Virus record (IMG/VR): IMGVR_UViG_3300047470_000134
Location: 1-37,791 of that record
Direction: 5' to 3' (one strand)
Source of the DNA: a virus
DNA: 37,791 bases
Below, in pieces: positions 8,863 to 36,824 of the stretch. A program made the position numbers and the translations under genes. The notes under the pieces were generated by a model. That model worked only from the letters and a program-made list of their open reading frames with translations, made no database searches and was not told the DNA's origin. Position 1 is the first letter of the stretch, and the number at the start of each line of letters is the position of its first letter.

Positions 8863-8880
8863 GTCGGTTTCCCGACTATT
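8863..8880 (-). repeat. late-unit hairpin element, copy 1 (before major capsid gene)
   Basis: Plus-strand sequence GTCGGTTTCCCGACTATT; on the late-transcript strand it reads AATAGTCGGGAAACCGAC, a five-pair stem with a GAAA loop. It starts about 10 bases after the scaffold stop and lies 170 bases before the capsid ATG. Four more copies with the same orientation occur at 12507, 13709, 32332 and 36805. Function unknown. Confidence 0.9.
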
Positions 8881-8891
8881 TGCGGCGGTGA

Positions 8892-9752
8892 TCAGCCAAG
8901 GCGGGATTGAGGCTTGTTGTATCTGCGTTCGTACATGGCATCGAGCTCGGCCTTGATGCCGGCACGCTTCGGATCATGCTGCGGCATGGCCTCGAGCTGG
9001 GCGCGCAGCTCGGCGGTCTTCACAGCAAAGTCCGCCTCATTGACCTGGCCGCCGTTGATGGCGCTGTCTTCCTTGAGCTCCTTGCCGATGTTGGCGGTAA
9101 AGGCGATGAAGTCCGGATCGTTGCCGTACTTGGACATCAGCGCATCGAAGTTGCCCGGGGCGGTACCTTCACTGGCGAACGCCTGAGCCGCGCGGTAGGA
9201 GGCGGTGACGTTGGATTTCATGGCTGCCTCATCGGTCCACACGGACTTGAGCGCCGCGGTGCAGTCCTGAGCGGTGAGCTGCACGCCGCCTTCGATCAAG
9301 CCCGGGGCAGCCTTCATGTATTCGCCAATGACGTACTGCACCTGGTCATTGGTCAGGCCCTTGGCGTGGGCGCCCTTCAGGAACGACTGGGTGCTCTCGT
9401 CCTTCTTGAACTCGTCCCAGTTGAAACCCTCGACGCCTTCCAGCTTGACCGCGTATTCATCAGCGGTCTTTGGCGGCACATCACCCGAGCCCATGCGGGT
9501 CTCAAGGTGTTTGTAGGCCTCGGCAACCTTGCGCGACGATGCTTCCAGATCAAGGCTGCCGTCCTCTTTGTTGGTGCGGTACTTCTCGGGGATGAAGTCA
9601 GTGGTGGCTGCGTTGCTCAGCACGGACGGCGCCGGAACTGGTGCAGGTGCTGGGGCGGGAGTTGGATCTGGTGCGCCACCGCCGGCGGCCGGATCACCCT
9701 CGGCCATCAGGAACGCGCCCATGAACCGGGCAAAACTATTCTTCAAACGCAT
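8892..9752 (-). CDS. scaffolding protein
   Basis: A 286-residue acidic protein with an N-terminal linker of repeated Pro-Ala units (residues about 28-43) and long charged helices after it, ending in a basic tail (ERRYNKPQSRLG). Acidic helical proteins with a basic C-terminus placed between portal and capsid genes are scaffold proteins, which direct prohead assembly and then leave. The ATG at 9752 has a GGAG site. It overlaps the upstream 77-residue gene by 17 bases. Confidence 0.82.
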   Translation of the reverse strand: MRLKNSFARFMGAFLMAEGDPAAGGGAPDPTPAPAPAPVPAPSVLSNAATTDFIPEKYRTNKEDGSLDLEASSRKVAEAYKHLETRMGSGDVPPKTADEYAVKLEGVEGFNWDEFKKDESTQSFLKGAHAKGLTNDQVQYVIGEYMKAAPGLIEGGVQLTAQDCTAALKSVWTDEAAMKSNVTASYRAAQAFASEGTAPGNFDALMSKYGNDPDFIAFTANIGKELKEDSAINGGQVNEADFAVKTAELRAQLEAMPQHDPKRAGIKAELDAMYERRYNKPQSRLG

Positions 9753-9969
9753 TGGTATCTACTCCGTTTGCTCTGTTGATTTGGGAAACGATGAACTCCA
9801 GCACCCGGCGTTGGCCGTCGCGCTGATAGGTTTCGAGGACGGCATCAATCCCACCCTTGACCACGGCGGGACGTGCGAACTGGTTGGTCAGCGCGTCGAG
9901 GATCAACCGCCCTTCGTGGTGATCCTCAAACACGCGCTTGTACATCGCTGCATCGACTTCGATTGCCAT
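9736..9969 (-). CDS. Bbp19-like small head protein
   Basis: A 77-residue protein with the pattern YKRVFEDHHEGRLILDAL then DGQRRVLEFIVSQI. This matches the short Bbp19-like family known from Bordetella phage BPP-1 and relatives, encoded between portal and scaffold. Its biochemical role is not known; a head assembly role is inferred from position. It overlaps the portal stop by one base and the scaffold start by 17, implying translational coupling. Confidence 0.7.
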   Translation of the reverse strand: MAIEVDAAMYKRVFEDHHEGRLILDALTNQFARPAVVKGGIDAVLETYQRDGQRRVLEFIVSQINRANGVDTNAFEE

Positions 9970-11564
9970 TACGCTGCGGCTCCCTGTTGTTTGAGTGCGG
10001 CGTCAGTAACCTGCTGTTTCATCTGTTGCTGCTGGGCTTCCTCCTGCGCCTGTTGGTTGGCGGCGGCACGGTCTTCGCGGATCTTGTCGCGGTCGGCCTT
10101 GCTGCGGATGACGGACGACGGAACGCCCAAGGCCTCGCCCTTGAAGCGCTGGGCCTCGTCCATGTCGATGTTGTCCAGGACGGTCGGATCTGTCGCAGCA
10201 ACAACCAGTGCGCCGGCCACGAACTGGTCAATGGCCGAGACCTCTTCCAGCTTCTGCGAGCGGGCCAGCGGCGACAGGTAACGCACGGTGAAGTTACGAC
10301 CGGCCAGCGACTCAGGCGCAGCACCCAGCACGCCAGCGCGGTAAGCGATGCCAAAGCACCGCTCGATCATGGGTTGCAGGTATTCGGTTTGCAGGCGGCC
10401 ATAGACCGGGCCGAGCAACTGGCGGATCAGGTTCACGCGCACGTGCACCTCGGTGGCAGTCATCGCCGGGCCGTCCTGAGCCTGGAGCTGATCGGCCATC
10501 AGGATCTTGCGGATGGAGGCCTGCAAGCGGGCGATCTTGGTTTCGGCGTACTCGAAGTTCGAGCCGCTTTGCAGCGGCTTCATGCTGTCGACGCTGTTGG
10601 CGACGATGATCTTGCGCGGCCCGACCTTGACCGTGCGCGGATTGAGCACGCCGTCGTCTTCGGCAATCCACATGCCGGCAATGGCCAGGTCACCGGCTGC
10701 AAGGTCCATCCTGCAGAGTTCGTTGAGGGTGCGAGAATCAGGCAGTGCATCGAACACCGGGCCCACGGCGTACACGCTGTCCGGGATCATCATCCAGCGC
10801 GGCACAACCACCGGCATTTCGTGATAACCCGACTCGCTCACCAGGTGCTTGGCATCGACCTCGACCTTGCACGACGCAATCGGCATGTTCTTGGCCAGCT
10901 TGGCGCCGACCATGTACGTGGTGCGGGGGTAGATCGCGTGAACGAACTTGACCAGCTCCTGCGGTTTGTCCTTGGCCAGCTTGCGCGTGCCTTCGCTGAC
11001 GTTGGCCTCACCGAACTCATTGACCGCCTGTTCAGCGGTCAGCTTGTACTCGCGGTACACGGTGTCGATCTTGCCGCCAGCCTTGGACGCCGAGGCGTAC
11101 ACGCTCGCGATGGGCCACAGGTCGAAGGTGAAACCGCCCTTCTCCATGTCCTGATCGATGTACAGGGCAAACCAGCCAGCGCACACAACGTCGATCAGCC
11201 CCTCGAAAGCGGCCGCGTCGAAGTTGGAAGCATGGATGTTCTGCCAGAGGATGTCGGCTGAGTCGTCCAACCACCGGCGTTCCTCGTCGGTTTCCTGCCC
11301 CACGTCCATGCCAAACCACAGGGAGTTGGCCGGGGTCAGGCCCGACATGATGCCGGACGACAGGATCCGGGCCGCGTCCGTGGTGGTCCCGTCGATCATC
11401 CGGGCCTTGCGCATCTGCGCTTCCATGGCCGTGATCTGCTCCGTGCAAAAGCCACTGCCCCGGATTGGGTAGCTGTGGTCGAAGCAATCGCGCCAGACCG
11501 ACTCATGCGGCGAGCGGAGGGACTTCAGGGTGCTCAGCGTTTTGGCGATCTGGGATGCGTTCAT
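9969..11564 (-). CDS. portal (head-tail connector) protein
   Basis: A 531-residue protein of the T7 gp8-like connector family. The N-terminal LKSLRSPHESVWRDCFDHSY, the GIMSGLTPANSLWFGM segment and the LLGPVYGRLQTEYLQPMIER segment are typical. The C-terminus is Gln-rich (residues about 505-527). Twelve copies should form the ring through which DNA is packaged and ejected. It starts inside the stop codon of the 67-residue upstream gene (ATGA). Confidence 0.9.
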   Translation of the reverse strand: MNASQIAKTLSTLKSLRSPHESVWRDCFDHSYPIRGSGFCTEQITAMEAQMRKARMIDGTTTDAARILSSGIMSGLTPANSLWFGMDVGQETDEERRWLDDSADILWQNIHASNFDAAAFEGLIDVVCAGWFALYIDQDMEKGGFTFDLWPIASVYASASKAGGKIDTVYREYKLTAEQAVNEFGEANVSEGTRKLAKDKPQELVKFVHAIYPRTTYMVGAKLAKNMPIASCKVEVDAKHLVSESGYHEMPVVVPRWMMIPDSVYAVGPVFDALPDSRTLNELCRMDLAAGDLAIAGMWIAEDDGVLNPRTVKVGPRKIIVANSVDSMKPLQSGSNFEYAETKIARLQASIRKILMADQLQAQDGPAMTATEVHVRVNLIRQLLGPVYGRLQTEYLQPMIERCFGIAYRAGVLGAAPESLAGRNFTVRYLSPLARSQKLEEVSAIDQFVAGALVVAATDPTVLDNIDMDEAQRFKGEALGVPSSVIRSKADRDKIREDRAAANQQAQEEAQQQQMKQQVTDAALKQQGAAA

Positions 11565-11764
11565 GCTCCGAGTGTCCTTTTTCCTTGCTCAAGCACGCTG
11601 CCGGCGGCGCCAGCGGTCGACAGCAAGCTGCTCTCTGCCTTGCGCTTCTTGCGTGTGGCCGTCTCTTCGTTGGCCTTCTGTGCGGCCAAGTCGGCGGCCT
11701 TCTGCGCTTCGACCTGTGGGTCTGGTGCGGCGACTACCTTGGGTTTCTTTGGCTTGCTTCCCAT
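11561..11764 (-). CDS. small Lys/Ala-rich protein before portal
   Basis: A 67-residue basic protein beginning MGSKPKKPKVV, with a helical Ala/Gln/Lys middle and ending LEQGKRTLGA. Short proteins of this shape are often encoded just before connector genes in podophages, but no function is established. It is coupled to the portal gene by an ATGA overlap, which makes expression from the same message likely. Confidence 0.6.
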   Translation of the reverse strand: MGSKPKKPKVVAAPDPQVEAQKAADLAAQKANEETATRKKRKAESSLLSTAGAAGSVLEQGKRTLGA

Positions 11765-11769
11765 GGGCC

Positions 11770-12183
11770 TTACCCCTTGACCGGTGGCTCAGGGCAGAGC
11801 CAACCGTCTGGCGTCATGACCGGCTGCTTCAGGCTTGAGGCGTCGATATCGCCTGTGGGAGCGGGCTTGACCTGTGGCTTGGCGGCGGTGTCGTCCTTCG
11901 GCTCTTGCACGAACGGCTCACCGCCAGCGAGCAGGCGATCCAGTTCGACCAGGACGGTAACCTTGTCGCCAACGAAATCACCGACGCGCTTGGCCTCGGC
12001 GTCATTGGTCACGACATGCCAGCGGCCACCCGCAATGTGCTTGGCGACGTACAGCGCCGGGGCGGTGTCGTCCTTCGGTGGATCGCCGGCGCCGGTGATC
12101 CCGGCGGCATCCGGGGCAAGCGGCGTGATGGTGCCCAGCGGTTCGCCGGGGGTCTTCGGGGTAAGTTCTTCTGGAGCGGGCAT
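11770..12183 (-). CDS. hypothetical Pro/Asp-rich head-region protein
   Basis: A 137-residue protein with Pro/Thr/Asp-rich disordered ends and a compact core, ALYVAKHIAGGRWHVV to VTVLVELDRLLAGG (residues about 43-88). A strong AGGAGG ribosome site precedes the ATG at 12183. No family is recognised. It is the second gene of the head transcription unit and is five bases upstream of the 67-residue gene, so a structural or assembly role is possible. Confidence 0.6.
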   Translation of the reverse strand: MPAPEELTPKTPGEPLGTITPLAPDAAGITGAGDPPKDDTAPALYVAKHIAGGRWHVVTNDAEAKRVGDFVGDKVTVLVELDRLLAGGEPFVQEPKDDTAAKPQVKPAPTGDIDASSLKQPVMTPDGWLCPEPPVKG

Positions 12184-12214
12184 GTTGGTGCCTCCTGTGC
12201 TGCTGGAGTGGGAG

Positions 12215-12448
12215 TTACTCGGTGGGGGTTTCAGGTGCGTCCGGGACTTCTGGTGTTTCTGGCGCCTGTGGCTCTTCCGCCTTCCCGATCAGCTCGGAGG
12301 CGTAAGCAGTCATGTTCTGCACCAGGGCATTCACATCCGTCTGGACCTCCGGCATGTTCGCCGCTGCGGCCTTGCTGATCAGGTTGCCGACGGCATCGGC
12401 CAGGGATATGGCGCGGTTGAACTCGTAGTCTGCGATGGTGCGGGACAT
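12215..12448 (-). CDS. hypothetical small helical protein, first gene of head unit
   Basis: A 77-residue protein with a helical N-terminal two-thirds and a Pro/Glu/Thr-rich tail of repeated PE/PT units. The ATG at 12448 has a GAGG site. It is the first gene after repeated hairpin element copy 2, 58 bases upstream. No family is recognised. Confidence 0.6.
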   Translation of the reverse strand: MSRTIADYEFNRAISLADAVGNLISKAAAANMPEVQTDVNALVQNMTAYASELIGKAEEPQAPETPEVPDAPETPTE

Positions 12449-12506
12449 TGGGCTGGCCTCGGTTGGAGTTGTTGATCAACGAGGGCCAGCATCTGAGAGG
12501 TGAGCT

Positions 12507-12524
12507 GTCGGGTTCCCGACTATT
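12507..12524 (-). repeat. late-unit hairpin element, copy 2 (before head unit)
   Basis: Plus-strand GTCGGGTTCCCGACTATT. This copy can pair six by six (GTCGGG / CCCGAC) with a two-base loop, or five by five with loop GAAC. It lies between the muralytic gene stop and the start of the 77-residue gene at 12448. Confidence 0.9.
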
Positions 12525-12548
12525 TGCGAGGGCTTGCGGCGCTGGCTT

Positions 12549-12971
12549 TCACTCCAGCGCCCTGCGCACGCCTTCGGCCAGCACGGCGTCGGGGTAGGCA
12601 AAGCCTGCGTTTTCGTGATGGATGATGGCCCTGACGAAGCCGGCCAGTACTTTGATGGCGTGCAGATCGACGTCTGCCCCTGGCTCTGTGCCGGTGTTGG
12701 CCTCGACGGCCCGCACGTAAGCGCCGGTGTCGTTCTCGACTGACGGGGCCCAGCGACTGATGATCGTCTCGACGGTCTTGAGCTTGTGCTTGTCCTGGTA
12801 TGTGAGCAGCAGCTTGCCCAGGGCACGGATGCCATTCTCTGGCGTGTCGAAGCGGGCGAACCGTTTCTCCAGTGCTGGGTTGGGCGGCAGCTGGCCGCGC
12901 CACTTGTTGGCCGGCACGTAGTCGATGTTGCCCGGGTTGTTGTTCCGCACGCCGCGCGTAGGAGTTGCCAT
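12549..12971 (-). CDS. virion-type peptidoglycan hydrolase / endolysin
   Basis: A 140-residue protein with the opening RGVRNNNPGNIDYVPANKWRG, then FARFDTPENGIRALGKLLLTY. This arrangement marks a family of phage muralytic proteins often annotated as structural protein P5-like endolysin or lytic transglycosylase. Placed right after two holin-like genes, it should be the lysis enzyme that cuts peptidoglycan. No signal peptide is seen, so it would depend on a holin for export. The start at 12971 has a GAGG site and overlaps the holin stop by one base. I see no Rz/Rz1 pair. Confidence 0.75.
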   Translation of the reverse strand: MATPTRGVRNNNPGNIDYVPANKWRGQLPPNPALEKRFARFDTPENGIRALGKLLLTYQDKHKLKTVETIISRWAPSVENDTGAYVRAVEANTGTEPGADVDLHAIKVLAGFVRAIIHHENAGFAYPDAVLAEGVRRALE

Positions 12972-13261
12972 CAGTCAAGCCTCAGGACGCGGGCGACGTT
13001 GCCGTGAGCGCGGTACACAAGCACCGTCAGCACGAACAATACGACCAGGATGAAGGGGGAAACGGCGGTCACCGGCTTGGCGAGCAACACCGCCATCATG
13101 ACCGTCAGCCACTCACAGCCGGTGGCGGCGGCGAGGATGTAGGCCAGACAGGAAACGCCAGCGCGGTACCGAGCACCGTCACGACGGTAAGTCGCGATGC
13201 GCCAGCAAATGGCGCCGCACAGGGCGCCAGCGAGAAGAGTCCATGGATCAACCGTTACCAT
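12971..13261 (-). CDS. holin-like membrane protein (second)
   Basis: A 96-residue protein with an N-terminal hydrophobic segment (residues 5-20), a basic loop, and two further membrane segments (about 33-60 and 66-83), ending in a basic tail. It resembles the small holin III/LydA-type proteins of Pseudomonas prophages. A GGAGG ribosome site fixes the start at 13261 although the frame is open to 13549. It overlaps the first holin-like gene by 14 bases and the lysin gene by one. It may be holin or antiholin. Confidence 0.7.
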   Translation of the reverse strand: MVTVDPWTLLAGALCGAICWRIATYRRDGARYRAGVSCLAYILAAATGCEWLTVMMAVLLAKPVTAVSPFILVVLFVLTVLVYRAHGNVARVLRLD

Positions 13262-13631
13262 TGCGACTGCCTCCGAATCTGTCAGCGACCCATTGCATCC
13301 AGCTGGGCATTTTCCCGCCGCCAAGCCACAGCAGCAGACTGATTCCAACCGTGACGCAGAGCAGAGCACCCAAGAGCGCGACCAGGCCCGATGTCCGAAC
13401 CCATCCGCGCTCAATGGCTTCGGCAGCCACGTAATACCCACCAATCCAAGACGCGACGAAGTACCCGAACCGGGCCAACATGCCCAGCTCCTTGGCGAAC
13501 ACCACAAAGAAAATGGCACCGGCAAACGCGCCAATGACCGCGTTCCCATCCACGCCGGGCCACAGGCTCACAGCGGTGACACCGACAATCCCTGCGCCAG
13601 CGACCACAGCACTGCTGCTCGGCTCTGCCAT
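13248..13631 (-). CDS. holin-like membrane protein (first)
   Basis: A 127-residue protein with a short Ser/Ala N-terminus and four hydrophobic stretches (about residues 8-25, 30-47, 55-73 and 83-103), then an amphipathic basic C-terminus. The phrase WPGVDGNAVIGAFAGAIFFV resembles putative phage holins found next to endolysins. The start at 13631 is chosen for its GAGG site. It is the first gene after a terminator and repeated hairpin copy 3, so it opens the lysis unit. Confidence 0.72.
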   Translation of the reverse strand: MAEPSSSAVVAGAGIVGVTAVSLWPGVDGNAVIGAFAGAIFFVVFAKELGMLARFGYFVASWIGGYYVAAEAIERGWVRTSGLVALLGALLCVTVGISLLLWLGGGKMPSWMQWVADRFGGSRNGNG

Positions 13632-13647
13632 TTGATACCTCGTAAGC

Positions 13648-13669
13648 AAAACCCCGCACGGTGGCGGGG
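13648..13669 (-). terminator. intrinsic terminator between early block and lysis genes
   Basis: On the minus strand: CCCCGC stem, CACCGT loop, GCGGGG stem, then TTTT. It stands between the zinc-ribbon gene and the first holin gene. Early leftward transcripts would stop here, so lysis and late genes need readthrough or a new promoter. Element copy 3 lies about 40 bases upstream. Confidence 0.85.
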
Positions 13670-13708
13670 TCGGGTTATTCGACGAGGCAAGGATCGGTTG
13701 GGTGAGGT

Positions 13709-13726
13709 GTCGGGATCCCGACTATT
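13709..13726 (-). repeat. late-unit hairpin element, copy 3 (before lysis unit)
   Basis: Plus-strand GTCGGGATCCCGACTATT, containing a perfect 14-base palindrome. It overlaps the TAG stop of the zinc-ribbon gene and is followed, in the transcription direction, by the terminator at 13648-13669 and then the holin genes. Confidence 0.9.
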
Positions 13727-13886
13727 TCGGCTTACCGCGCACCAGGTCATCTGCCATAGCTGTCTTGGCGGCCTCCTGCGCAGCGGCATCAGCCTGTTTG
13801 CGTGTGCAGCTCGCACAAAGCTGACCGCGCATTTGTCCGACCCTTACGGCGTAGCTGCATCCCGGGCAAACGTACTGAACGCTCAT
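13722..13886 (-). CDS. small zinc-ribbon protein
   Basis: A 54-residue protein with two CxxC pairs, CPGC at residues 7-10 and CASC at 24-27, which should bind one zinc ion. A charged helix follows. Its ATG overlaps the stop of the upstream 50-residue gene (ATGA). It is the last gene before the early terminator, a position where some phages encode regulators of late transcription. Whether this one is a regulator or just a small nucleic-acid-binding protein is unknown. Confidence 0.65.
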   Translation of the reverse strand: MSVQYVCPGCSYAVRVGQMRGQLCASCTRKQADAAAQEAAKTAMADDLVRGKPK

Positions 13887-14035
13887 GACTGCGCAGCCTG
13901 CCAGATCGACCAGAACGTCTGAGTCATCTTGCTGACGTACGAGCCGTTGTAGCGCTCAACGTTGTAGCCCAGGTGCGCGATGTAATCCTCGAACCGCTGC
14001 CGCGAGGCGCTGGGAGTATCGTCTTCGGTGATCAT
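13883..14035 (-). CDS. hypothetical 50-residue protein
   Basis: A short protein, MITEDDTPSASRQRFEDYIA and on to KMTQTFWSIWQAAQS, with an amphipathic Trp-rich C-terminus. A GAGGG site precedes the ATG at 14035. It lies between the 88-residue HTH-like protein gene and the zinc-ribbon gene, coupled to the latter by an ATGA overlap. The open frame extends to 14281 but without a better start. Similar short proteins occur in Pseudomonas phages with no known function. Confidence 0.6.
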   Translation of the reverse strand: MITEDDTPSASRQRFEDYIAHLGYNVERYNGSYVSKMTQTFWSIWQAAQS

Positions 14036-14045
14036 GGTCTTGCCC

Positions 14046-14312
14046 TCAAGCCTTGGAGTGATAAGCCCACCAGTCGCCAATCGCGACCATGGGCAGTCTT
14101 GTGCGGTCGTTCCCAGTGGTCTGGCACCAGAACGACACCAGGCGCTCGCCCTCGGTGTAACGAGGTTCAGCGCCCTGCTTCCAACCCAACAACGTGGTGC
14201 GTGCAACTCCGATGGCGTCGGCCACCGACTGCGGGGAATAGCCGGTGCGCGACAGGACCGTGATGACCGTGAACCAGTCAACCCGCTGTTCGACCACGGC
14301 CAACATGGTCAT
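14046..14312 (-). CDS. small HTH-containing protein, possible late regulator
   Basis: An 88-residue protein with a helix-turn-helix-like stretch, GYSPQSVADAIGVARTTLLGWKQGAEPRYTEGERL (about residues 24-58), in which helix two reads QSVADAIGV and the recognition helix ARTTLLGWK. It probably binds DNA. Position near the end of the early leftward operon, where lambda has Q, makes it a candidate late activator or antiterminator, but that is inference. ATG at 14312 overlaps the upstream stop; a second ATG two codons in is possible. Confidence 0.62.
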   Translation of the reverse strand: MTMLAVVEQRVDWFTVITVLSRTGYSPQSVADAIGVARTTLLGWKQGAEPRYTEGERLVSFWCQTTGNDRTRLPMVAIGDWWAYHSKA

Positions 14313-14602
14313 GCCCCAAACGTGCGTGCGCGCGAGGTTGTGAAAGGTTGCGCGTCCCCCACCCCCTCCAATCCCCTGTTCACGCGATAAGTCATTTCAG
14401 CGATAACGCCAGCGAATTCCACAACCGGGTCAGTGCACTCGTCGAAGTGAAACGGGTGAATGGCCCTACGGTACCCGAGAAGCGCCTCAGGCTCTCCGGG
14501 TGCTGACAGGTCCACGTCCACGCCGATCATCACCCAGCCGTCTACCAGCTCGCGGCAGGCCCATTGCAGGATTGGTTTTGGCATAACTCCCCCGAGTTTC
14601 AT
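14309..14602 (-). CDS. hypothetical protein of the early operon
   Basis: A 97-residue protein, acidic in the middle (VDVDLSAPGEPEALLGYRRA) and ending with a basic tail. No family is recognised. The ATG at 14602 lies within the stop of the 32-residue membrane peptide gene; an alternative ATG at 14584 has GGGGG upstream and could equally be used. The next gene overlaps its stop by four bases, so it belongs to a tightly coupled chain. Confidence 0.58.
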   Translation of the reverse strand: MKLGGVMPKPILQWACRELVDGWVMIGVDVDLSAPGEPEALLGYRRAIHPFHFDECTDPVVEFAGVIAEMTYRVNRGLEGVGDAQPFTTSRARTFGA

Positions 14603-14697
14603 TGGCAGATGGTCGGCAGGCCGAGCATGTAGAGCTTGAAGGCCGCTGCTCCGATGGCGATCAGGGCGATGTACCAGAGCGTGATGAGGGCGCTCAT
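14599..14697 (-). CDS. 32-residue membrane peptide
   Basis: MSALITLWYIALIAIGAAAF and on to a short polar end (PTICQ) gives one membrane-spanning helix of about 20 residues. ATG overlaps the RusA-like gene stop (TCATGA context) and its own stop overlaps the next ATG, so it fits the coupled gene chain exactly. That fit is the main support, since the peptide is too short for family recognition. Confidence 0.5.
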   Translation of the reverse strand: MSALITLWYIALIAIGAAAFKLYMLGLPTICQ

Positions 14698-15137
14698 GAT
14701 GGCTTCCCCTCCAGCGGTACGACACGGACGAGAACACCCGGGGTTTCGCCGAAGCGCTTGCTCAGCGAGACGTTGACCACCTGAACGTCGTCCTTGAACA
14801 CGATGCCGTTGATACCGTCGCAGATGGCTTTGAGCACGTTGTCGATGTCCGGTTTCTTGGTGGGCATCACCAGGCCTTGCAGGGCCTCGGCGGTTTTCTT
14901 CTTGGACCAGGACGCGGCCACGGACACGATGATTTTCATTTCCACCATGACGGGGCCGGCGATCAGCTCGCGGCCGTTCATGGCTTGCTGCGCGGCCATG
15001 GCGATCAGGGTTTCGTAGTTGGCGGTCTTGGTGGGCGTGAACATGCGAGCGTGGCCACCGATGGTGCTGACGCGTGGCCTGCCCTTCCCGATGGCCTCAC
15101 CCGGCACGGTGAATGAAACGGGATTGTGATCAGACAT
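14694..15137 (-). CDS. RusA-like Holliday junction resolvase
   Basis: A 147-residue protein with the family order: FTVPGEAIGKGRPRV near the start, then the KPDIDNVLKAICDGINGIVFKDDVQVV region. Its Asp residues (KPDxDN and KDD) form the metal-binding active site of RusA-type endonucleases that cleave Holliday junctions and branched DNA. ATG at 15137 overlaps the P-like gene stop by eight bases. Its role would be to resolve recombination or replication intermediates before packaging. Confidence 0.9.
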   Translation of the reverse strand: MSDHNPVSFTVPGEAIGKGRPRVSTIGGHARMFTPTKTANYETLIAMAAQQAMNGRELIAGPVMVEMKIIVSVAASWSKKKTAEALQGLVMPTKKPDIDNVLKAICDGINGIVFKDDVQVVNVSLSKRFGETPGVLVRVVPLEGKPS

Positions 15138-15843
15138 CGTCGTCTCTCCGAATGCCCATCTTGGCGAGCAGCAGCTCACGGGCGGACTTGCCGTTGGTGG
15201 GGATGCCCTGGGCGATGACCAATGCTTCGGCTTCCTTGCGGGAGTGTTCGAGCTGGATCTGTTCGCGTGGCCGCATGCTGTCGCTGCCGATGCCGTGAGC
15301 AATTCGCCCTTCAAGCGGTTGGCCGGTCTGTGCACGGCGCGTGACGATGGCGTAGTTTCGTTCGAAGCGTTGGCGCAGGGCCTTGTCGCTGTTCGGTGCG
15401 CTGTGCAGGTCGAACGTGCTGGTGGCTTCTGCGGCAATGCGCACGGCTGGGTGGCTGTACTTCCCTGAACGGGCTTCGTCCCATGCTTGGGCTTCACTCG
15501 GCAGACCAGGCACTTGCAGGCACATGGCACGAAAGACGTTCGCCGGCGGTGGCCAGTCGTATTCGTCTGGTTTGTCGACCAGGGCATTCAAGCCGTTGGC
15601 GATCTGTTGGCCCGTGATGCCCTTGAGCACCGATGCCCACGAATGATCGGGATCAGCTTTCTCGCCGAAACTCGCCGTCCAGCGGTGGCCGTACATCTCG
15701 GTCATTTTCACCCACAGCTTGTCCAGGAGCGTTTGCGACAGCTTCTCGGGCTTGTCGGTCGGCAATGTGCTGCTTGACCCGGTCGACTGCAGATCGAGGA
15801 CCTTGCCGAGCAGGTCGGCTACCGGCGTTGTTGAGTCGTCCAT
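15130..15843 (-). CDS. lambda P-like replication protein (helicase loader)
   Basis: A 237-residue protein with the conserved core of phage P-type loaders: LLDKLWVKMTEMYGHRWTASFG and WASVLKGITGQQIANGLNAL, then WPPPANVFRAMC. Such proteins recruit host DnaB helicase to O-bound origin DNA. The ATG at 15843 has a good GGGAGA site, but using it places 191 bases in overlap with the O-like gene. An internal ATG at 15705 would shorten the overlap but lacks comparable support and would cut just before the conserved core. Confidence 0.82.
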   Translation of the reverse strand: MDDSTTPVADLLGKVLDLQSTGSSSTLPTDKPEKLSQTLLDKLWVKMTEMYGHRWTASFGEKADPDHSWASVLKGITGQQIANGLNALVDKPDEYDWPPPANVFRAMCLQVPGLPSEAQAWDEARSGKYSHPAVRIAAEATSTFDLHSAPNSDKALRQRFERNYAIVTRRAQTGQPLEGRIAHGIGSDSMRPREQIQLEHSRKEAEALVIAQGIPTNGKSARELLLAKMGIRRDDDV

Positions 15844-16566: not shown

Positions 16567-16875
16567 TCAGTCCTCCTCCAGCTGGTCGACGCTCTGGATG
16601 TGTTCCATCCAACGCTTGGAACCGTGGATGAACATGGCGATGTCTGCCTCGTTGAAGCAGCGCATCTCCTCGGGGACGATCTTCAGGCCCAGTACTGCAA
16701 GGATTTGGCAGAACTGCTCGAACTTCTCAGGCTTCATGCGGCTGATCGTTGCCTCATCGCAACCGACTGCAACCGCGACAGGTCCGTTGCCGATCGATGC
16801 AAGCTTTTGCATGAGAAAGGAGTAGTTCTTGCGGGCCCTTACGGTCTGCTGTTGGTTCAATGGGCTCGTCGACAT
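16567..16875 (-). CDS. CII-like transcriptional activator
   Basis: A 102-residue protein resembling lambda CII in size, order and fold: a helical N-terminus (RARKNYSFLMQKLASIG), then a helix-turn-helix, GPVAVAVGCDEATISRMKPE, followed by KFEQFCQILAVLGLKIVPEE. In lambda CII drives repressor and integrase promoters and so favours lysogeny. It lies directly after cro and before the O-like gene, the lambda order. GAGG precedes the ATG at 16875. Confidence 0.85.
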   Translation of the reverse strand: MSTSPLNQQQTVRARKNYSFLMQKLASIGNGPVAVAVGCDEATISRMKPEKFEQFCQILAVLGLKIVPEEMRCFNEADIAMFIHGSKRWMEHIQSVDQLEED

Positions 16876-29664: not shown

Positions 29665-29711
29665 AGTATCTGGGCTTCGTGAAACTTGGTGAAACCCAGT
29701 GAAGCTGTAAA

Positions 29712-29835: not shown

Positions 29836-29868
29836 CTGCCGCCTGGGTGCTATCAACCAGGGCGGCAG
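29836..29868 (-). terminator. hairpin after tailspike gene
   Basis: CTGCCGCCTGG (29836-29846) pairs with CCAGGGCGGCAG (29857-29868) with one bulged G. It starts 28 bases after the tailspike stop. No T-run follows, so it may protect the message 3' end more than terminate. Confidence 0.5.
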
Positions 29869-29896
29869 CCCTGCCACAACATACACTCCCCTCGTA

Positions 29897-32242
29897 TTAC
29901 TTGACGACGTTCTTTGCCGTGATATCCGCCAGTAGCGTGCCGACCACGTTGGCAAGCTGCGGCAAGGTTACGGTCGTGGAGTCAAATGTGCGCAATGTGG
30001 AGCTAATCGTTGCCGCAAAGTCAGGTTCGTTCTGCACGGTGTTGATGTACCCGTTCTGCGCGAAGTGGTTCCTGAACTGGTAGATCACTGCCGAGTTACC
30101 GCCATCAATGCGGAATCGCTTGGTGGTGGTGGTTCCGTAGGTACCTTCTATGTGCCAGCGGTTTCGTGGGTCAGCGTCATACACCAGGTAGTTGCCGAGC
30201 GCGTCAGCCGAAGGGAATCGAATGCCGTTGTTCCTGAAGTACACCGTCGGGTTAGCCAGTTGGCTTGGAATGCCAGCAGCCCCAGGCGCGTAAATAAGGA
30301 TTGGCGATCTGTTGTCGTCGTTAACCCCGGAAAGGCCAGGGTTCAGGAAATCGTTGTTTTCGATCTGCATTATCCCGTAAAGCGATGTAGCGATAGCGCA
30401 GAAGCGAGTGGAACGGATTGAGTTGTTGGTAATGCGGCCTGACAAGTCACGGCCAAAGATCCCGTACGTGGAGCCCTCAATGTCGTTATTAGAAATATCG
30501 ACATCAACCAGCCTGTCTATTCCCATTGAGTTGTTTACACATCCTCGGGAGACGTTGTGTTTTATTGAAGCGCCACGGTTATAAATCTCTCGACCGTCAG
30601 ACAGCGAACTGCTGACAACAAGGATGTCGTAGCCATTGGTATCGAAGTTGTTGTTGTGGATCATGGTCCCCTTCCTGAAGGTTAGGGGGTCTACTTGCCA
30701 TTTTACGGAGTTGAACGCCACGTCAGAGTTCGCCACCGCGCAAATCCACAGGATACTTAAATACTGCACCTTCTGGCCTGGCACATACGAAGTTCCCGAC
30801 ACCCACAAAGGCGCGATGTTGAAGCCGGAATAGTTTTCGAACTGGGTCTTCACGCCAGCCTGGTAGCAATTCCTGAAGGTGTTGTTCATCACCATAAAGC
30901 CATCGTTCTCGATGCCATACACCCCGTGCTGGCCGAGAATAGGGCCGATGTCGTTACCCATGATCTGACAGGTTCGGGTTTGTACCGTCTGGATTCCGAA
31001 CGCGGTATCCCAGATACGATTATTCAGAAATGTATCGTTATAGATCCAGCCAAGCGCGTTGTTCTTTGGCTGGCACATGATGCCGAAGTCGGAGCCGTTG
31101 CCCTGGTTGCCTTGGCCTACCGGGTCGATGTAGGGGTAACCAATGCCTTTGATGTTGCAGTTCTTGACGGTCTTTGTCGGTACGCCGAACATCACCACGC
31201 AGCCACCGGCATGATCCCGGCCGCGCAAGCCATCCACCACGATTTCATCACCGCCGTCGAAACACACCGCCGCCACGCCGTTGTAGCTGGAACTGGCGCC
31301 GTTGTATTCACCTGCCGCGCCGCCACGACCGAAGAAGCGACCACGCCTTACTTCTGTGCCGAAGTGTTCCGTAAATCGCAGCGTCTGCTTGAAGTTCTGC
31401 TGCTGGTAGAGGTTGGCGCCCTTCAGATTGATCTGGCAGTCGGTGCGCGTCGGGAAGGTGATCTGGCCATTGATCAAATAATTTCCTTCAGCCTTAAACC
31501 TTCCGCCACTTGGCAGAGCATTCGCCGCTGCTTGCCAGGCGGCCGTGTCGGCGGCTGCGTTGCCCACACCGACCGCGCCAGCCACAGGGAACTGCTCGGG
31601 CCGAATGATCTTGCCGATGGTCTTGGAGAGCGAAACACCGGCATGCCCGACGACATCAGAGCCATTGGCGCCGCCAATATCCTGCACCACATGCGGCAGC
31701 CCATCGGCGCCGGTGATGTAGATGTTCGCTGAGTTGTTGATAGGCCCTGTGATGGCCTCAAGGATCTCAGTGATATAGGTCTGCGTGTAACGCTTGTTGA
31801 CTGCGTCCTGCGGGTTTATTGGGTCGCCAAGGTCTGCAAGACGGTTTTGCTTTGCTCGGTATGCCCCAAGCCCATCGATGTCATTGGGTCCAAGAATCGG
31901 CGAGCGACTGCTGTACCGGTCAAGTTGTTTGAGCGCTTGCCAAATACGATCAAAGTCGCGATTGAGCGTGCCGGAAAGGAGGTCCCCGTTGTTTTGATAG
32001 TCCGTAAGCCTTTGTATCGGAACTTCGAGATAGAGGAACAGATCGCCTGTTGGTGGGATCGTGAAGGTGATTGCGCTGGTAGGCAGACCAATACCCACAT
32101 GCACGTAGCCGGAGGTCAGGAGCACGCCGTTCAGAAGAACCTTCAGGTCGCCCGCTTCGATAACCAAAAATGGGACGGCGTAGGTTAGGGAGACGCCATT
32201 GGCGGCGTATCGTTTTTCGGTAGGTCCCGGCTGAACTGCCAT
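29897..32242 (-). CDS. tailspike with T7 gp17-like N-terminus and beta-helix body
   Basis: A 781-residue protein. Residues 1-150 are a T7 tail-fibre-type adaptor (EKRYAANGVSLTYAVPFLVI to DYQNNGDLLSGTLNRDFDRI). Residues about 230-660 carry repeated short strands with Asn/Gly turns (NNTFRNCY, NNNFDTNGY, SNNDIEGS, NNSIRS) typical of a right-handed beta helix that binds or cleaves surface polysaccharide. Residues 478-517 (PLWVSGTSYVPGQKVQYLSI then Cys) look like an inserted carbohydrate-binding loop. AAGGGG precedes the ATG at 32242. Confidence 0.88.
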   Translation of the reverse strand: MAVQPGPTEKRYAANGVSLTYAVPFLVIEAGDLKVLLNGVLLTSGYVHVGIGLPTSAITFTIPPTGDLFLYLEVPIQRLTDYQNNGDLLSGTLNRDFDRIWQALKQLDRYSSRSPILGPNDIDGLGAYRAKQNRLADLGDPINPQDAVNKRYTQTYITEILEAITGPINNSANIYITGADGLPHVVQDIGGANGSDVVGHAGVSLSKTIGKIIRPEQFPVAGAVGVGNAAADTAAWQAAANALPSGGRFKAEGNYLINGQITFPTRTDCQINLKGANLYQQQNFKQTLRFTEHFGTEVRRGRFFGRGGAAGEYNGASSSYNGVAAVCFDGGDEIVVDGLRGRDHAGGCVVMFGVPTKTVKNCNIKGIGYPYIDPVGQGNQGNGSDFGIMCQPKNNALGWIYNDTFLNNRIWDTAFGIQTVQTRTCQIMGNDIGPILGQHGVYGIENDGFMVMNNTFRNCYQAGVKTQFENYSGFNIAPLWVSGTSYVPGQKVQYLSILWICAVANSDVAFNSVKWQVDPLTFRKGTMIHNNNFDTNGYDILVVSSSLSDGREIYNRGASIKHNVSRGCVNNSMGIDRLVDVDISNNDIEGSTYGIFGRDLSGRITNNSIRSTRFCAIATSLYGIMQIENNDFLNPGLSGVNDDNRSPILIYAPGAAGIPSQLANPTVYFRNNGIRFPSADALGNYLVYDADPRNRWHIEGTYGTTTTKRFRIDGGNSAVIYQFRNHFAQNGYINTVQNEPDFAATISSTLRTFDSTTVTLPQLANVVGTLLADITAKNVVK

Positions 32243-32267
32243 TTTTTAGCCCCTTGGTGGTGGCGGG

Positions 32268-33893
32268 CTAGTAGTCCACTTGAACCTCATGCACGCCCGC
32301 ATCTGGGCGCCAATCGTCCCGCCGGGCCTCTGTCGGTTTCCCGACTATTCGCCCAATGCGTACAGGGGTTTGGCTGATGGCGCCGGCGCCGGAGTCGATG
32401 AAGTCATCGTCCTGATTGGTGAGTGCCGGATTGAAGTCGCGCATCTGGTCCCAGATCGTGCGCAGTACGTCGACGTGCGCCCACAGGAAGCGGGCCGACA
32501 GCGGCGACTCGAAGGCGTCGAGGATGCGCTTCTGCTTGTTGGTGCTGCTGTGTTCCTCCCCTACCCCACAACCGGTGCCCTTCAAGGCCTGCTTGAGGAT
32601 CGACGGGGCAAAGCCACCGGGGCCGTTGGTTTCGATGATCACCCGGGGGATCTGGTACTTGATCACCAACTCGCGGATCTGGTGCACCTGGCCGCCCGTG
32701 ATGCGATCGCGGCTATCGAACTCGGCAATTTCCCCGGTCAGGCCCTCGGCAATGTGCCAATAGAGCTGGCCGCGCGCATCGGTCAGCAGCAGCGAGAACG
32801 CCGAGGCATCGGACTTGATCTTGCCCAGCGAGCAGTCCCAATACGCCACCGCGCCGACGATCTGGGTTGACCCCAAGAACATGGCCGCCGCGCCGTTGGC
32901 GTAGCGCATGACTGGCTGAACGTCGTACGGGATGATCCGCGCCGGGTCCAAACGAACCTCCGTGACGGGCTTCGAGTGGAGCTGATACTGCGAATCCCAT
33001 TCGTTGATGGTCTTGGTCTTGAACCGGCGGTTCGCCAACTCTGCCGCGTTGAAGCGATCAGGCCAGGCGCTGCCGGCGTAGCAATCGACCAACGTGCAGG
33101 GTGGTGTAAAGAAGGCAATTCCGGTTTTTGTCAGTTGATAGTCTTTGCCTAGGACCAGAACCCACGAGTGCTTCCCGATGCCGGAGAACACAACGTCCGG
33201 AACAAACGGCACGTCGTAGGCATTGAGCTTGGCCTCTTCAATGCGGTGTTCCTGGGCAAACATGCGGATGGTCAGGCAGTCCGCCCCCAACCCTTCTACC
33301 TCGTCGTACAGGCTGTCATGAGTGTGGGGCGTACCAATGAAGAGCTGGCGGGCACCGGGCACCATGATGTGGATCTGCTCGCCCAGCCTGTACCGCATCT
33401 TCTCCCGCGCCTCGGGAGTGCCGATGTTGCTAGGCACCTCGACGTCGTCGTTCTGACATTCGTCGGCACGGGCGGATGTCACGTTCGACAGAATCCCCCT
33501 GGCGTACATGCTGGCGTTGCGGCTGTCGATGGCGCCCAGCACCCACCATTGCTCAATGCCGCCCTGGTTGGCGGACAGCAAATGGCGCGTCAGCGGGTGA
33601 TTGCGCAAGACGTTCTGGGTATCGCGGCTGGTCTTGTAAGCAGTTGGGTTCGATTCCGACTGGTGCAGAATTCGATAGGTCGGGTCGCAGTAGTAGCGCC
33701 AAGCGTTGTACACGGCCAGCAATGTGGACTTGCCGAAGCCACGGAAACAGCGAAGCACCGCGAGGTTTTCACGGTGCTCCAGCCAATAGCAGGCCCGGAC
33801 GTGAATGTCCGGTACCGCCCAACGCATGCGCTTCGCCCATATAAGGAAGAAGACCAGCAAAGAGACTTTCGCAGCTGGCGGCTCAGTGGACAT
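32268..33893 (-). CDS. terL: terminase large subunit
   Basis: A 541-residue protein. Walker A RGFGKST is at residues 51-57, a Walker B-type ADE is at 143-145, and the nuclease domain shows D353 (VAYWDCS), the ETNGPGG motif at 421-427 and DDDFIDSGAG at 496-504. The motor pumps DNA through the portal and cuts the concatemer. The gene overlaps TerS by 11 bases. The coding sequence near its end contains repeated hairpin copy 4, so the element also encodes GRIVGKPT. Confidence 0.92.
   Translation of the reverse strand: MSTEPPAAKVSLLVFFLIWAKRMRWAVPDIHVRACYWLEHRENLAVLRCFRGFGKSTLLAVYNAWRYYCDPTYRILHQSESNPTAYKTSRDTQNVLRNHPLTRHLLSANQGGIEQWWVLGAIDSRNASMYARGILSNVTSARADECQNDDVEVPSNIGTPEAREKMRYRLGEQIHIMVPGARQLFIGTPHTHDSLYDEVEGLGADCLTIRMFAQEHRIEEAKLNAYDVPFVPDVVFSGIGKHSWVLVLGKDYQLTKTGIAFFTPPCTLVDCYAGSAWPDRFNAAELANRRFKTKTINEWDSQYQLHSKPVTEVRLDPARIIPYDVQPVMRYANGAAAMFLGSTQIVGAVAYWDCSLGKIKSDASAFSLLLTDARGQLYWHIAEGLTGEIAEFDSRDRITGGQVHQIRELVIKYQIPRVIIETNGPGGFAPSILKQALKGTGCGVGEEHSSTNKQKRILDAFESPLSARFLWAHVDVLRTIWDQMRDFNPALTNQDDDFIDSGAGAISQTPVRIGRIVGKPTEARRDDWRPDAGVHEVQVDY
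32332..32349 (-). repeat. late-unit hairpin element, copy 4 (inside terL, before tailspike)
   Basis: Plus-strand GTCGGTTTCCCGACTATT. It lies within the last codons of terL and 89 bases before the tailspike ATG. Conservation inside a reading frame shows that the DNA or RNA sequence, not spacing alone, is selected. Confidence 0.9.
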
Positions 33894-34218
33894 GACCGCC
33901 CTTGCTCGCTCGCTCCAGCAGCGCCATGGCCTGGCGCTCAGCCTGAGCGACCTCGTCGTCGAGCTCCCTTTCTTCTTCGCCTATGGATGGATCTTTATCC
34001 CTCGTCAGGGTGGCGGTGATGTTCATCACCTTGACCAGCAGCGTCATGGTGGCGGCTGCGTTTTTCTTGCTCCAATAGCGATTCCCTCGCTCTTCCTGGG
34101 TCAGCTCATTAGCGACCTTCCCTTCCCCTGGCCACGTTGCTGGATTGGCCTCATCGATGACGACTTCAGCCAGGCTCTCGGACAAAGCCTGTAGGCGTGC
34201 GATCTGATCAAGTCTCAT
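33883..34218 (-). CDS. terS: terminase small subunit (probable)
   Basis: A 111-residue helical protein directly before terL, overlapping it by 11 bases and starting in the stop of the 847-residue gene (ATGA). It has an N-terminal helix (ARLQALSESLAEVVIDEAN), a WSKKNAAATMTLLVKVMNI helix and an acidic C-terminal helix. Position and size fit the DNA-recognition subunit; sequence similarity alone is not decisive. Confidence 0.7.
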   Translation of the reverse strand: MRLDQIARLQALSESLAEVVIDEANPATWPGEGKVANELTQEERGNRYWSKKNAAATMTLLVKVMNITATLTRDKDPSIGEEERELDDEVAQAERQAMALLERASKGGHVH

Positions 34219-36758
34219 GTTCTTGCTCCCACGGCTGCACCAGGATTCGGGGCGCGATCTGGCGAGGTCTCGCCCGGCTCCCACCAATACGATTGTTTGA
34301 ATTCCTTCTTGGCCCGCTGCTTCATCCGGCGCAGATACCCGGGCGAGAAGTATTCCTGCATCTGGTTGAAGATCAGGTGGTCGGTAGCCGCCTTCGTGTA
34401 CCAGAGGTTCGCCGCCGGCAAGTGACTCTTGGCCAGCTTCACCAGCTTGGCGCCGGTCTGATTGACCTCGCCGGCTGCAGCGTTGTCCTTGAGTTTGAAC
34501 ACCTGCTCGATGTCGCCAGCAATGGGGCCGCCAAGGGCTGCCAGCGGTGAGCTACCGCCCTGCGAGTTGTCGGAAAACAGGAAGTCGCCGTACAAGCCCA
34601 TCGCCCCGCCCTTGAGCATGGAGGCAATGCCAAAGCGCAGACCGGGCACCCCAAGCGTTCCGTCGTCGGTGATGTTCTTCGGGTCGCGGCCGCTGGCCAC
34701 TTCATTGAGCTGAATGGCCATGCCACCCAAAACGGTGGTGCTGGCGACCAAAGTGCCCAGATACCCTGCCTTGCCCCAGCCTTCCTGTGCCATGCCGCGT
34801 TGAACGTGCCGCATCACCATGCCGATGGAGAAGCTCTTGAACTGCCAGAACGATCGCAACAGTTCGCCTTTGACGGTCCCACGCTCAACACCACCGTGCA
34901 TCATTGCCTTCTCACGGGCGCCGGGCTCAATGATTGCCATGTTGGTTTCATCCAGCACAGTGCCAAGCAGCTTGGTGGCGGCCTGATCTTTCAGCCGTTG
35001 CGGGGTTGTGTTGAGCTGTCTTGCCATTTGCACCAGGTCGGCGTTCGGGATGCGGTAGATGCTGTTCGCCGTCAGCACGGTGTCGCCCACGCCTCGCCAG
35101 TCCTCCGGCTCTGCCATCCGCCATATTGACCAGTCAGTCTCGGTGACGCCCTGGCCAAGCAGGCGCTTGCTGTCTGCCGGGTCCATGGCTGCAATGGTCG
35201 GGTGCCGGCGTGACATGTCGCCGATGGTGTCCATCATGGTGGCGCCGAAAGCCCGCTGTGTGCCGGCGGTCAATGCGTTGAGGCCGGACGCCTGCATCAC
35301 CTTGCTGGCGGCGGTCTGCGAGAACTTCGATACCTTGCCCGATATCTGCTCAGTGCTGCCCAGGCCGTCAGCGCCCCAACGGTTCAGGCTGCCGATCAAT
35401 TGATTCAGGCCAAGGCCTGCGCGCTGCGCCATACGACGATCCCCAGCACTGGCCGGATTGAGCATGCGGATCTCGTTGGCGAAGACCTGCATTACGGGCA
35501 TGCCGTTCATGGATGCGGTAAGGCCAAGAGTTCCTTGGTCGGTAACGGACGTGAGAACAGCGGAGCCCAGCCGACTGGCAACGTTGAGTGCACGGTAAGT
35601 CTCGAAGCCGTTGGCCAGCGCAGCGGATGCCGGTGGCTCGCGAGTTCCGGCCACTTCCTCGTAAAGGTGTTCGATCTTGCGGCGTTGCTTGGCAGCCTTG
35701 TCGGCTTGCTTTGGGTCTGCCTCGATGGTGACCTTCTGCCCCTCATCTAGGAAGTAACGCATCTGGTTGTTCGGGTTCGGGCCGAGGTTTTCGACCAGGG
35801 AGATATCACGCGATGCACGATCGATGTGGCCGATCAGCAGCTCCAGCAGATTGCGTTCACCGTATGCCTTCTGGGCAGCGATGAAGCTTTCGGCATCCTT
35901 GTAGTGGATCTGCCGCGACTCGCTCCCACGGTTGGCGCGCATACCGTTGCCGGCGACGTTGCCCGGCTCCAGCTTGTTTACGCCGCCAGTGGCCAGCGTG
36001 GTCCATGCGTGACTGAGGAAGTCAGTCAGTTCGGCATCATTCATGGGCGAGCCGTCTTCTTTCATGTACTTGGCACGGTTGGCCCACTGCATATGGTCGC
36101 GCACCCACGTGGCCTGGTCCTTGGCCACCTTCACTTGGGAGTGGTCGCGAGGCATCGACCAATCCTCCAGAAACCCGACGTCGCCGCCGGCGCGGTTGAA
36201 GCGCTGACGCAGCTGCTCGGTGACATCCTTGAACTGTTTGGCGGCGGTCTTGGCCGCCGGCACACCTGAGTCTTCTCCGTGCAGCTCGCGCACCAAGGCC
36301 AAGTTGCCGGCCTCGTCTTGAAACAGGCCCATGAACTTGCCCTTGGTCACGTCGATGACATCGAGCATGCGGCTCAGCGCATCGTCGCGGATCGCCCGGG
36401 TTGCGGACTCAATCGACAGGATGCCGCTCTTGCCGTCGCTGGAGAACGCCAGCATTCGGTCGAGCCCTTCGAGGGGCTGGTCCGGGAAACGCTTCATGTA
36501 ACTGTCGATGCGGTCGTGGGCCATGATCGTCAGGGCCACCCGCTTTTTCTTCAGCTGCTGCTCGGCCACCAGCTCCTGCGCAGACTTGGTGGCAGCGTCG
36601 CTGAGTCGATCGGAGGATGTCTTGGATTGCCAGGTGGTGTCGGTCTGGGCAAGTTGGCGCATGTTGCGGCGCAGCCTGTCCTCGATGCCCTGAATCTCCG
36701 GCTGGGTGAGGGATCGGCCAATGGCCTGGGTGACGGCTTGAATACATTCGGCGCGCAT
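34215..36758 (-). CDS. large internal virion / ejection protein D
   Basis: An 847-residue, mainly helical protein with a charged N-terminal coiled coil (residues about 18-75) and a hydrophobic Gly/Met-rich segment near 690-740 that could touch membranes. It opens the packaging unit, upstream of terS. By order and size it is the largest internal protein, like the C-terminal part of T7 gp16; no transglycosylase motif was found. A strong AGGAGGT site precedes the ATG at 36758, and hairpin copy 5 is 46 bases upstream. Confidence 0.65.
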   Translation of the reverse strand: MRAECIQAVTQAIGRSLTQPEIQGIEDRLRRNMRQLAQTDTTWQSKTSSDRLSDAATKSAQELVAEQQLKKKRVALTIMAHDRIDSYMKRFPDQPLEGLDRMLAFSSDGKSGILSIESATRAIRDDALSRMLDVIDVTKGKFMGLFQDEAGNLALVRELHGEDSGVPAAKTAAKQFKDVTEQLRQRFNRAGGDVGFLEDWSMPRDHSQVKVAKDQATWVRDHMQWANRAKYMKEDGSPMNDAELTDFLSHAWTTLATGGVNKLEPGNVAGNGMRANRGSESRQIHYKDAESFIAAQKAYGERNLLELLIGHIDRASRDISLVENLGPNPNNQMRYFLDEGQKVTIEADPKQADKAAKQRRKIEHLYEEVAGTREPPASAALANGFETYRALNVASRLGSAVLTSVTDQGTLGLTASMNGMPVMQVFANEIRMLNPASAGDRRMAQRAGLGLNQLIGSLNRWGADGLGSTEQISGKVSKFSQTAASKVMQASGLNALTAGTQRAFGATMMDTIGDMSRRHPTIAAMDPADSKRLLGQGVTETDWSIWRMAEPEDWRGVGDTVLTANSIYRIPNADLVQMARQLNTTPQRLKDQAATKLLGTVLDETNMAIIEPGAREKAMMHGGVERGTVKGELLRSFWQFKSFSIGMVMRHVQRGMAQEGWGKAGYLGTLVASTTVLGGMAIQLNEVASGRDPKNITDDGTLGVPGLRFGIASMLKGGAMGLYGDFLFSDNSQGGSSPLAALGGPIAGDIEQVFKLKDNAAAGEVNQTGAKLVKLAKSHLPAANLWYTKAATDHLIFNQMQEYFSPGYLRRMKQRAKKEFKQSYWWEPGETSPDRAPNPGAAVGART

Positions 36759-36796
36759 GGCCTACCTCCTTCAGGGATGGAGGCAAGCCTACGGAG

Positions 36797-36824
36797 TTGA
36801 TACAGTCGGTTTCCCGACTATTTT
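36797..36824 (+). promoter_or_regulatory. possible lipoprotein-moron promoter
   Basis: Plus-strand -35 TTGATA (36797-36802), 16-base spacer, -10 TATTTT (36819-36824), 16 bases before the lipoprotein ATG. Repeated hairpin copy 5 fills the spacer, so a protein binding the palindrome would affect this promoter. Confidence 0.45.
36805..36822 (-). repeat. late-unit hairpin element, copy 5 (before ejection protein D)
   Basis: Plus-strand GTCGGTTTCCCGACTATT, identical to copies 1 and 4. It lies between the divergent lipoprotein gene and the 847-residue gene, 46 bases before the latter. Confidence 0.9.

Follow-up and report, generated by a model that had tools for sequence, protein, structure and literature searches.

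A repeated palindrome before the late genes of a viral DNA and a small helix-turn-helix protein proposed as its activator

We analyzed a 37,791-nucleotide stretch of viral DNA (IMG/VR virus record IMGVR_UViG_3300047470_000134, positions 1 to 37,791; referred to here as the window) in which an 18-base palindromic element occurs five times. The window also encodes P0001, an 88-amino-acid protein with a predicted helix-turn-helix (HTH) fold. In our assessment, the element is probably the operator of late promoters that possess a -10 hexamer but no usable -35 hexamer and that are activated by P0001. A preliminary description of the element had placed three options side by side, namely, a boxB-like antitermination site, an RNA-processing site, and an operator or promoter for a phage regulator. 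We favor the last of these because the spacing to the -10 is rigid, the element is constrained at the nucleotide level within terL, and it is inherited together with a phage HTH gene.

The five copies previously described are all present, on the minus strand and in the same orientation (Table 1). Shuffled sequences contained a mean of 0.02 copies, and none of 100 shuffles reached five. Allowing one mismatch, a search of the window gave no additional core copy with a -10. Pfam and PHROG annotation of the window genes bore out the assignment of each copy to one late group, and the distance from the end of the element to the presumed start codon was 170, 58, 77, 89, and 46 bases for copies 1 to 5, as expected from the 46 to 170 bases reported before. 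The location of copy 4 inside terL was likewise confirmed, at the 3' end of the gene. All three sequence forms of the element fold into the proposed hairpin, with a stem of 5 bp and a loop of four bases (GAAA in three of the copies), and have predicted energies of -7.4, -6.4, and -6.4 kcal/mol. A Pfam scan of 20 window proteins detected no RNA polymerase family.

Downstream of the element, an A at offset 32 and a T at offset 36 are present in all five window copies. They form the second A and the last T of a hexamer with the sigma70 -10 pattern, and the element ends 13 bases ahead of it. We aligned copies selected by the site alone (pattern AATAGTCGGGAWMCCGAC, -10 not required), which gave 141 occurrences with enough flanking sequence and 38 after dereplication. 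Both bases were kept in 38 of 38 copies. Base -1 was A in 35 of them, bases 31 and 38 were G in 25 each, and the remaining flanking positions were much less conserved. Another set was selected by P0001 and comprised 64 loci, in which the exact core GTCGGGAWNCCG was searched for, again without requiring the -10. Sites were found at 59 loci, 131 on the strand of P0001 and 9 on the opposite strand; all 9 arise where a forward site is the perfect palindrome GTCGGGATCCCGAC and was also read in reverse. After dereplication of the 131 sites to 30, A32 and T36 were present in 28, and the other two had such a hexamer one base closer. With the hexamer placed at -12 to -7, the element therefore spans about -43 to -26 and covers the -35 position. 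With spacers of 15 to 19 bases allowed, at most three of the six TTGACA bases were matched at three of the window copies and at most two at the other two copies, and a scan of positions 6000 to 16000 listed no consensus promoter at copies 1 to 3. Rigid spacing, a -10, and a weak -35 are best read as a sigma70-type promoter that would depend on an activator.

If the element worked as an RNA hairpin, in boxB-like antitermination, processing, or translation control, its stable stem and the GAAA loop of three copies would be explained. However, the spacing to the -10 is rigid, and judged from the -10, the hairpin lies upstream of the expected transcript start. Of the 30 dereplicated copies, 7 have a break in one of the two outer stem pairs and 4 in the other, and no compensatory change was found in these copies, whose inner three pairs are fixed by the choice of an exact-core set. 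The upstream position and the uncompensated outer pairs disfavor both the boxB-like and the RNA-processing options. Based on the stem-pair counts and the fixed -10 spacing, we rejected the RNA-hairpin readings and leave them the slightest of probabilities. Further evidence for a DNA site comes from the copy within terL. Relatives of TerL were obtained by protein search, and the core was present at the 3' end of terL in all 80 of the best 80 of 428 matches, at TerL identities down to 68%. In the 73 terL genes that remained after dereplication of 81, the Val, Gly, and Pro codons of the element were GTC, GGG, and CCG without exception (73/73), and these had the three lowest synonymous entropies among 156 conserved V, G, P, T, A, L, S, and R columns. 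This invariance indicates that selection acts on the nucleotides.

The gene for P0001 sits past rusA and ahead of the lysis group. The AlphaFold model of the protein (pLDDT, 88) is a compact XRE-like HTH fold that, as a single-chain prediction, contains only helices 13-22, 27-34, 38-45, 52-66, and 78-86. Its neighbors in the PDB by Foldseek were weak (C.BclI, HipB, SinR, and similar proteins; best E value, 0.044), and two viral models matched at E values below 0.001. A P0001 profile retrieved nothing convincing from PDB sequences (best E value, 0.075). Pfam Phage_CII did not match P0001 at E values up to 1; a separate CII-family gene is recognized by Pfam at positions 16567 to 16875. PHROG 16553 matches P0001 with an E value of 1.4e-20 and carries the label transcriptional repressor. 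In keeping with that label, P0001 bound to the -35 region might keep the late genes off. We regard a repressor operator as very improbable, since such a protein would find no usable -35 to block, and since the element and the -10 are kept while most other promoter sequence is not.

We compared the distributions of the element and P0001 among viral records. These searches covered chosen records only (42, 23, 29, 31, and 29 of those 31, in the respective searches), and our scan of viral sequences gives a lower bound on the prevalence of the element. P0001 was present in 31 of 42 motif-bearing records. Conversely, its profile matched in 30 of 31 tested records that had been selected by TerL (from the best 80 of 428). 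All 29 of the P0001-bearing records examined carried sites (one mismatch at most, -10 in the pattern), and 22 had exactly five on the late strand; relatives thus keep the element where the window has it, a point on which the preliminary description depended. A reversed-pattern control gave four matches in total across the same 29 records. In a more distant clade selected by TerL, 29 of 29 records had three to six sites, and the control had none. We named this clade enterobacterial, after its presumed hosts, because its nearest named TerL relatives are Yersinia phages and because one of 5426 Escherichia coli genomes has a match to a third of the query.

The nearest named phages found were Yersinia phages YeP4, YeP5, and YeP6. 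YeP5 resembles the window in having P0001 (46%) and elements before its lysis, head, capsid, and packaging genes, and differs from it in that one mismatch must be allowed for three of its five matched sites. The paper that describes these phages (PMC6548840) does not use the words promoter, late, or transcription in its main text. In YeP5 (L123, position 21486) and in seven related records (G483, G484, G485, G489, G490, G491, and G499), the capsid copy is followed 112 to 117 bases downstream by a weaker second element, GCCGGGAAACCGA.

In the complete YeP5 genome and in four diverged loci of 11 to 20 kb (L166, L172, L173, and L179), the structural genes and P0001 match the window. None of these five has a match to CI or CII of the window, and L166 has a weak rusA match. 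Among the window proteins compared, P0001 is the sole regulator matched between the window and YeP5. Records G063 and G064 share CII, DnaT-like, RusA, and P0001 genes with the window, and no match to its structural genes was found in the portions read (28 kb of 52 kb and 30 kb of 64 kb, respectively). Both have a site at the P0001 end and a second site, which in G063 is upstream of an endolysin gene. Taken together, the YeP5-type and G063/G064 patterns suggest that the site and the P0001 gene move together, seemingly independently of the virion genes.

A search of a species collection (84,980) returned 33 stretches with the element: 30 from Pseudomonas, two from Stenotrophomonas, and one from a metagenome bin. 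Among 398 genomes of one Pseudomonas genus, that of P. lundensis, the site occurred in 11, P0001 in 12, and both in six (Fisher P = 7.5e-8, uncorrected for shared ancestry). The 11 genomes hold 21 sites, and the sites of any one genome lie within 19 kb. So few and so clustered sites rule out a host regulon in these genomes.

P0001 homologues with 57 to 61% identity and no matched site were also seen at L160, L162, L164, and L265/L270, the last in record G215. The G215 region contains integrase, excisionase-like, and ejection-type genes, and no match to the capsid, portal, or terminase of the window was found in the 37 kb read; it is therefore perhaps a remnant or a satellite-like element.

The site also occurs in phages without recognizable P0001. 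The P0001 profile was searched against 23 chosen site-bearing records (the 11 without P0001 among the 42, plus 12 others) and gave no match at E values up to 1 in 22 of them and a weak match in G001. By context, ten records belong to a group that we call class A and eight to a class B; three contain the terL copy and are thus apparently fragments of viruses like that of the window, and two belong to none of these groups. A single site was found in 21 of the 23 (up to 2 mismatches). The class A site is located about 64 bases ahead of a small gene near the integrase, in records of up to 83 kb. The element is intact (18/18) in all nine loci found with the protein of that gene, although six of these nine contigs had already come up in the site search and their flanks are similar. 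In class B, comparison with named phages places the site between tail genes I and J, which are adjacent in Medea1 and PseuP_222. At up to 4 mismatches, the element was missing from bases 1 to 49500 of phiAH14a (55060) and from the 4-kb stretches searched in PAJU2, Medea1, and PseuP_222.

At the class A loci L061:12211-12457, L055:9961-10210, L240, L244, L247, and L248, a perfect element with a -10 precedes the small gene, whose product is of unknown function (61 amino acids in L061). The class B loci L087:1804-2085, L112:4704-4950, and L242 combine the element and a -10 with an immediate terminator-like hairpin and a small, probably membrane-bound protein. No PADLOC family matched four class A and B proteins, and no Pfam family matched three such proteins above the cutoff. 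In PHROGs, one class B protein belongs to PHROG 6632 (unknown function), and one class A protein had no match. These phages either have a protein of their own with the same specificity or answer to a P0001 phage in trans. It is possible, though less likely than not, that unrelated Pseudomonas prophages captured the promoter as eavesdroppers that fire only during the late phase of a coresident P0001 phage.

Several observations weigh against P0001 as the activator of the late promoters. The 18 class A and B records keep single perfect sites with no P0001 match among them. The one miss of the P0001 profile among the 31 TerL-selected records, G501, has five sites. Of the 11 site-bearing Pseudomonas genomes, five lack P0001 (four class A and one class B), and 6 of the 12 Pseudomonas genomes with P0001 lack the 18-mer (four with P0001 at 59 to 63% identity and two with partial matches). 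No exact-core site was present in the DNA read at 5 of the 64 P0001 loci. The repressor label of PHROG 16553 and the weak Foldseek matches to solved structures count on the same side, as does the terminator-like hairpin right past the lysis promoter at 30 loci, which would be odd for a plain activator. The class A and B sites and G501 would be accommodated if another factor, from the host or the phage, bound the site and P0001 merely traveled with it. We think this improbable, given how few and clustered the Pseudomonas sites are, given that the five Pseudomonas genomes without P0001 are all class A or B loci, and given that no other regulator was matched between the window and YeP5 among the window proteins compared.

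A further point against a fixed pairing comes from two outgroups, Alcaligenes phage Piluca and Acinetobacter phage TPWB-05, whose TerL is 47% identical to an enterobacterial-clade protein. Distant P0001 homologues were detected in both (E values of 2e-9 and 3e-10 in a five-record search). Neither has the core; a different repeated element, CACCCAACAAACC, precedes the late groups instead. A P0001-type protein is therefore not always paired with the site. In Piluca (L381), CACCCAACAAACC or a close form occurs at 7, 19459, and 24200, with a fourth match at 22691 that is not before a late group, and in TPWB-05 (L382) it occurs upstream of genes ending at 3401, 8390, 11887, 20800, and 25689. It is usually followed, 6 to 22 bases downstream, by a terminator-like hairpin placed immediately ahead of the start codon. 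Because its spacing varies and there is no evident -10, the element may function in antitermination. Both P0001 and the late element are missing from Escherichia phage vB_EcoM_APEC. Tandem GTCGGAAAATCCGACAAGT-like repeats at L383:21960-22035 of this phage, in a gene annotated as replication protein O, resemble origin iterons, and their likeness to the late element may be due to chance.

The preliminary description also held that copy 3 precedes a terminator. Our custom finder supported this with a hairpin in the lysis leader (Table 1), which a stricter terminator scan of positions 6000 to 16000 did not list. The hairpin begins 14 bases past the expected start in the window, and one is found 4 to 13 bases past it at the first site of P0001 loci, 30 of 59 in all. 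The same finder detected none at 47 second sites and 25 third sites. Class B has such a hairpin 18 to 22 bases past the expected start at 9 of 9 loci examined, and class A has none at 6 of 6. In the window, the leader (13630 to 13690) folds with -25.1 kcal/mol (z score, -3.8), and its presumed Shine-Dalgarno sequence, CGAGG, pairs with CCUCG near the 5' end. We read the lysis hairpin as a probable means to attenuate or delay lysis that would also stop early transcription; a role in antitermination is possible.

These hairpins could instead mean that the site loads a Q- or AlpA-like antiterminator, so that P0001 would join the polymerase and pass terminators. The first-site and class B hairpins suit this explanation, and P0001 lies between rusA and the lysis genes, the position of Q in lambdoid phages. 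Both systems would have a DNA site inside a promoter and, at the first site of 30 of the 59 P0001 loci, a terminator-like hairpin close downstream. We nevertheless judge it unlikely. Hairpins are missing from the second and third sites and from the class A loci examined. The AlpA element, GGGACGN5GGTA, lies between the -35 and the -10, whereas the window element covers the -35 position. AlpA has eight helices, with a ring-forming N-terminal segment and a C-terminal HTH, whereas P0001 has a single HTH and five predicted helices with no such segment in the single-chain model. Site position, motif, and architecture thus ruled out P0001 as an AlpA homologue, which its gene position and the lysis hairpin had suggested. 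In the enterobacterial clade and YeP5, the TerS copy has a terminator-like hairpin, read by eye, that begins directly after the -10. A late transcript would therefore lack its 5' arm and escape, and read-through RNA from upstream would be stopped. This overlap of the TerS late promoter with a hairpin was seen at L324:1095-1165, L310, L332, and L335, where the 3' arm, GGGGCT, may also be a ribosome site.

According to our model of P0001-activated late promoters, induction or infection would lead to early transcription through the cII, dnaT-like, and rusA genes, and P0001 would be made. A P0001 dimer would bind the palindrome GTCGG(N4)CCGAC, centered near -32.5, and hold RNA polymerase at the -10, so that the five late groups would be turned on together. 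At the lysis copy, the hairpin just past the start would lower or delay expression.

Table 1. Putative late operators and associated genes in the window
Feature	Position	Strand	Annotation
Late operator copy 1 (AATAGTCGGGAAACCGAC), putative capsid-tail promoter	8863..8880	-	-10-like AAACAT, 8844-8849
Late operator copy 2 (AATAGTCGGGAACCCGAC), putative head promoter (portal, scaffold)	12507..12524	-	-10-like GATGCT, 12488-12493
Late operator copy 3 (AATAGTCGGGATCCCGAC), putative lysis promoter (holin-lysozyme)	13709..13726	-	-10-like GATCCT, 13690-13695
Late operator copy 4, putative tailspike promoter, within terL 3' end	32332..32349	-	-10-like GACGAT, 32313-32318
Late operator copy 5, putative promoter of 847-aa virion protein, small gene, and TerL	36805..36822	-	-10-like TAGGCT, 36786-36791
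P0001, 88-aa HTH protein, proposed late activator	14046..14312	-	PHROG 16553
Terminator-like hairpin within lysis leader	13648..13669	-	Custom finder; absent from stricter terminator scan
Major capsid gene, likely start codon 8692	7829..8827	-	PF19821
Portal (head-tail connector)	9969..11564	-	PF12236
Endolysin-like gene, lysis group	12549..12971	-	PHROG 873
Holin gene, first in lysis group, likely start codon 13631	13248..13649	-	PHROG 198
Tailspike-like protein	29897..32242	-	PF13229
terL, holds copy 4	32268..33893	-	PF22530
847-aa virion structural protein, first gene past copy 5	34215..36758	-	PHROG 684

The control that we propose for P0001 is best compared to that by lambda CII, T4 MotA, and P2 Ogr, to which no family link was detected. 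CII is a small HTH activator that serves several sigma70 promoters (pRE, pI, and paQ) from a site overlapping the -35 region; it recognizes the direct repeats TTGCN6TTGC and drives lysogeny. The window site, in contrast, is an inverted repeat before late genes, and P0001 has no Pfam CII match. MotA binds a nonpalindromic box that replaces the -35 upstream of a good -10, needs AsiA, and serves middle genes. Both sites stand in place of the -35, but that of the window differs in sequence, is palindromic, and precedes late genes. Ogr of P2, like Delta of P4, is a single activator of several late promoters with an inverted-repeat site, and P4 uses the activator of its helper. The Ogr site is near -55 and Ogr is a zinc-binding protein, whereas the window site lies at about -43 to -26 and P0001 is XRE-like. 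Since CII and MotA already replace the -35, this kind of control is known; the protein family, the operator, and its five-fold use in these phages were not found in the literature searched. No title or abstract opening on late promoters or activators of such phages described the element, the motif sequence retrieved one unrelated paper only, and no proposed late regulator for such podophages turned up.

P0001 and its site are thus a candidate, testable master switch for the late genes of a broad, little-studied group of temperate podophages whose head, tail, and packaging genes are T7-like. We found members of this group in genomes of Pseudomonas and Stenotrophomonas, among Yersinia phages, and in many viral contigs that are unassigned. 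The site is so constrained that late promoters can be located with it in raw prophage DNA. If phages without P0001 respond to it, one phage would read the developmental signal of another, and such eavesdropping promoters, if real, would serve defense, exclusion, or comobilization.

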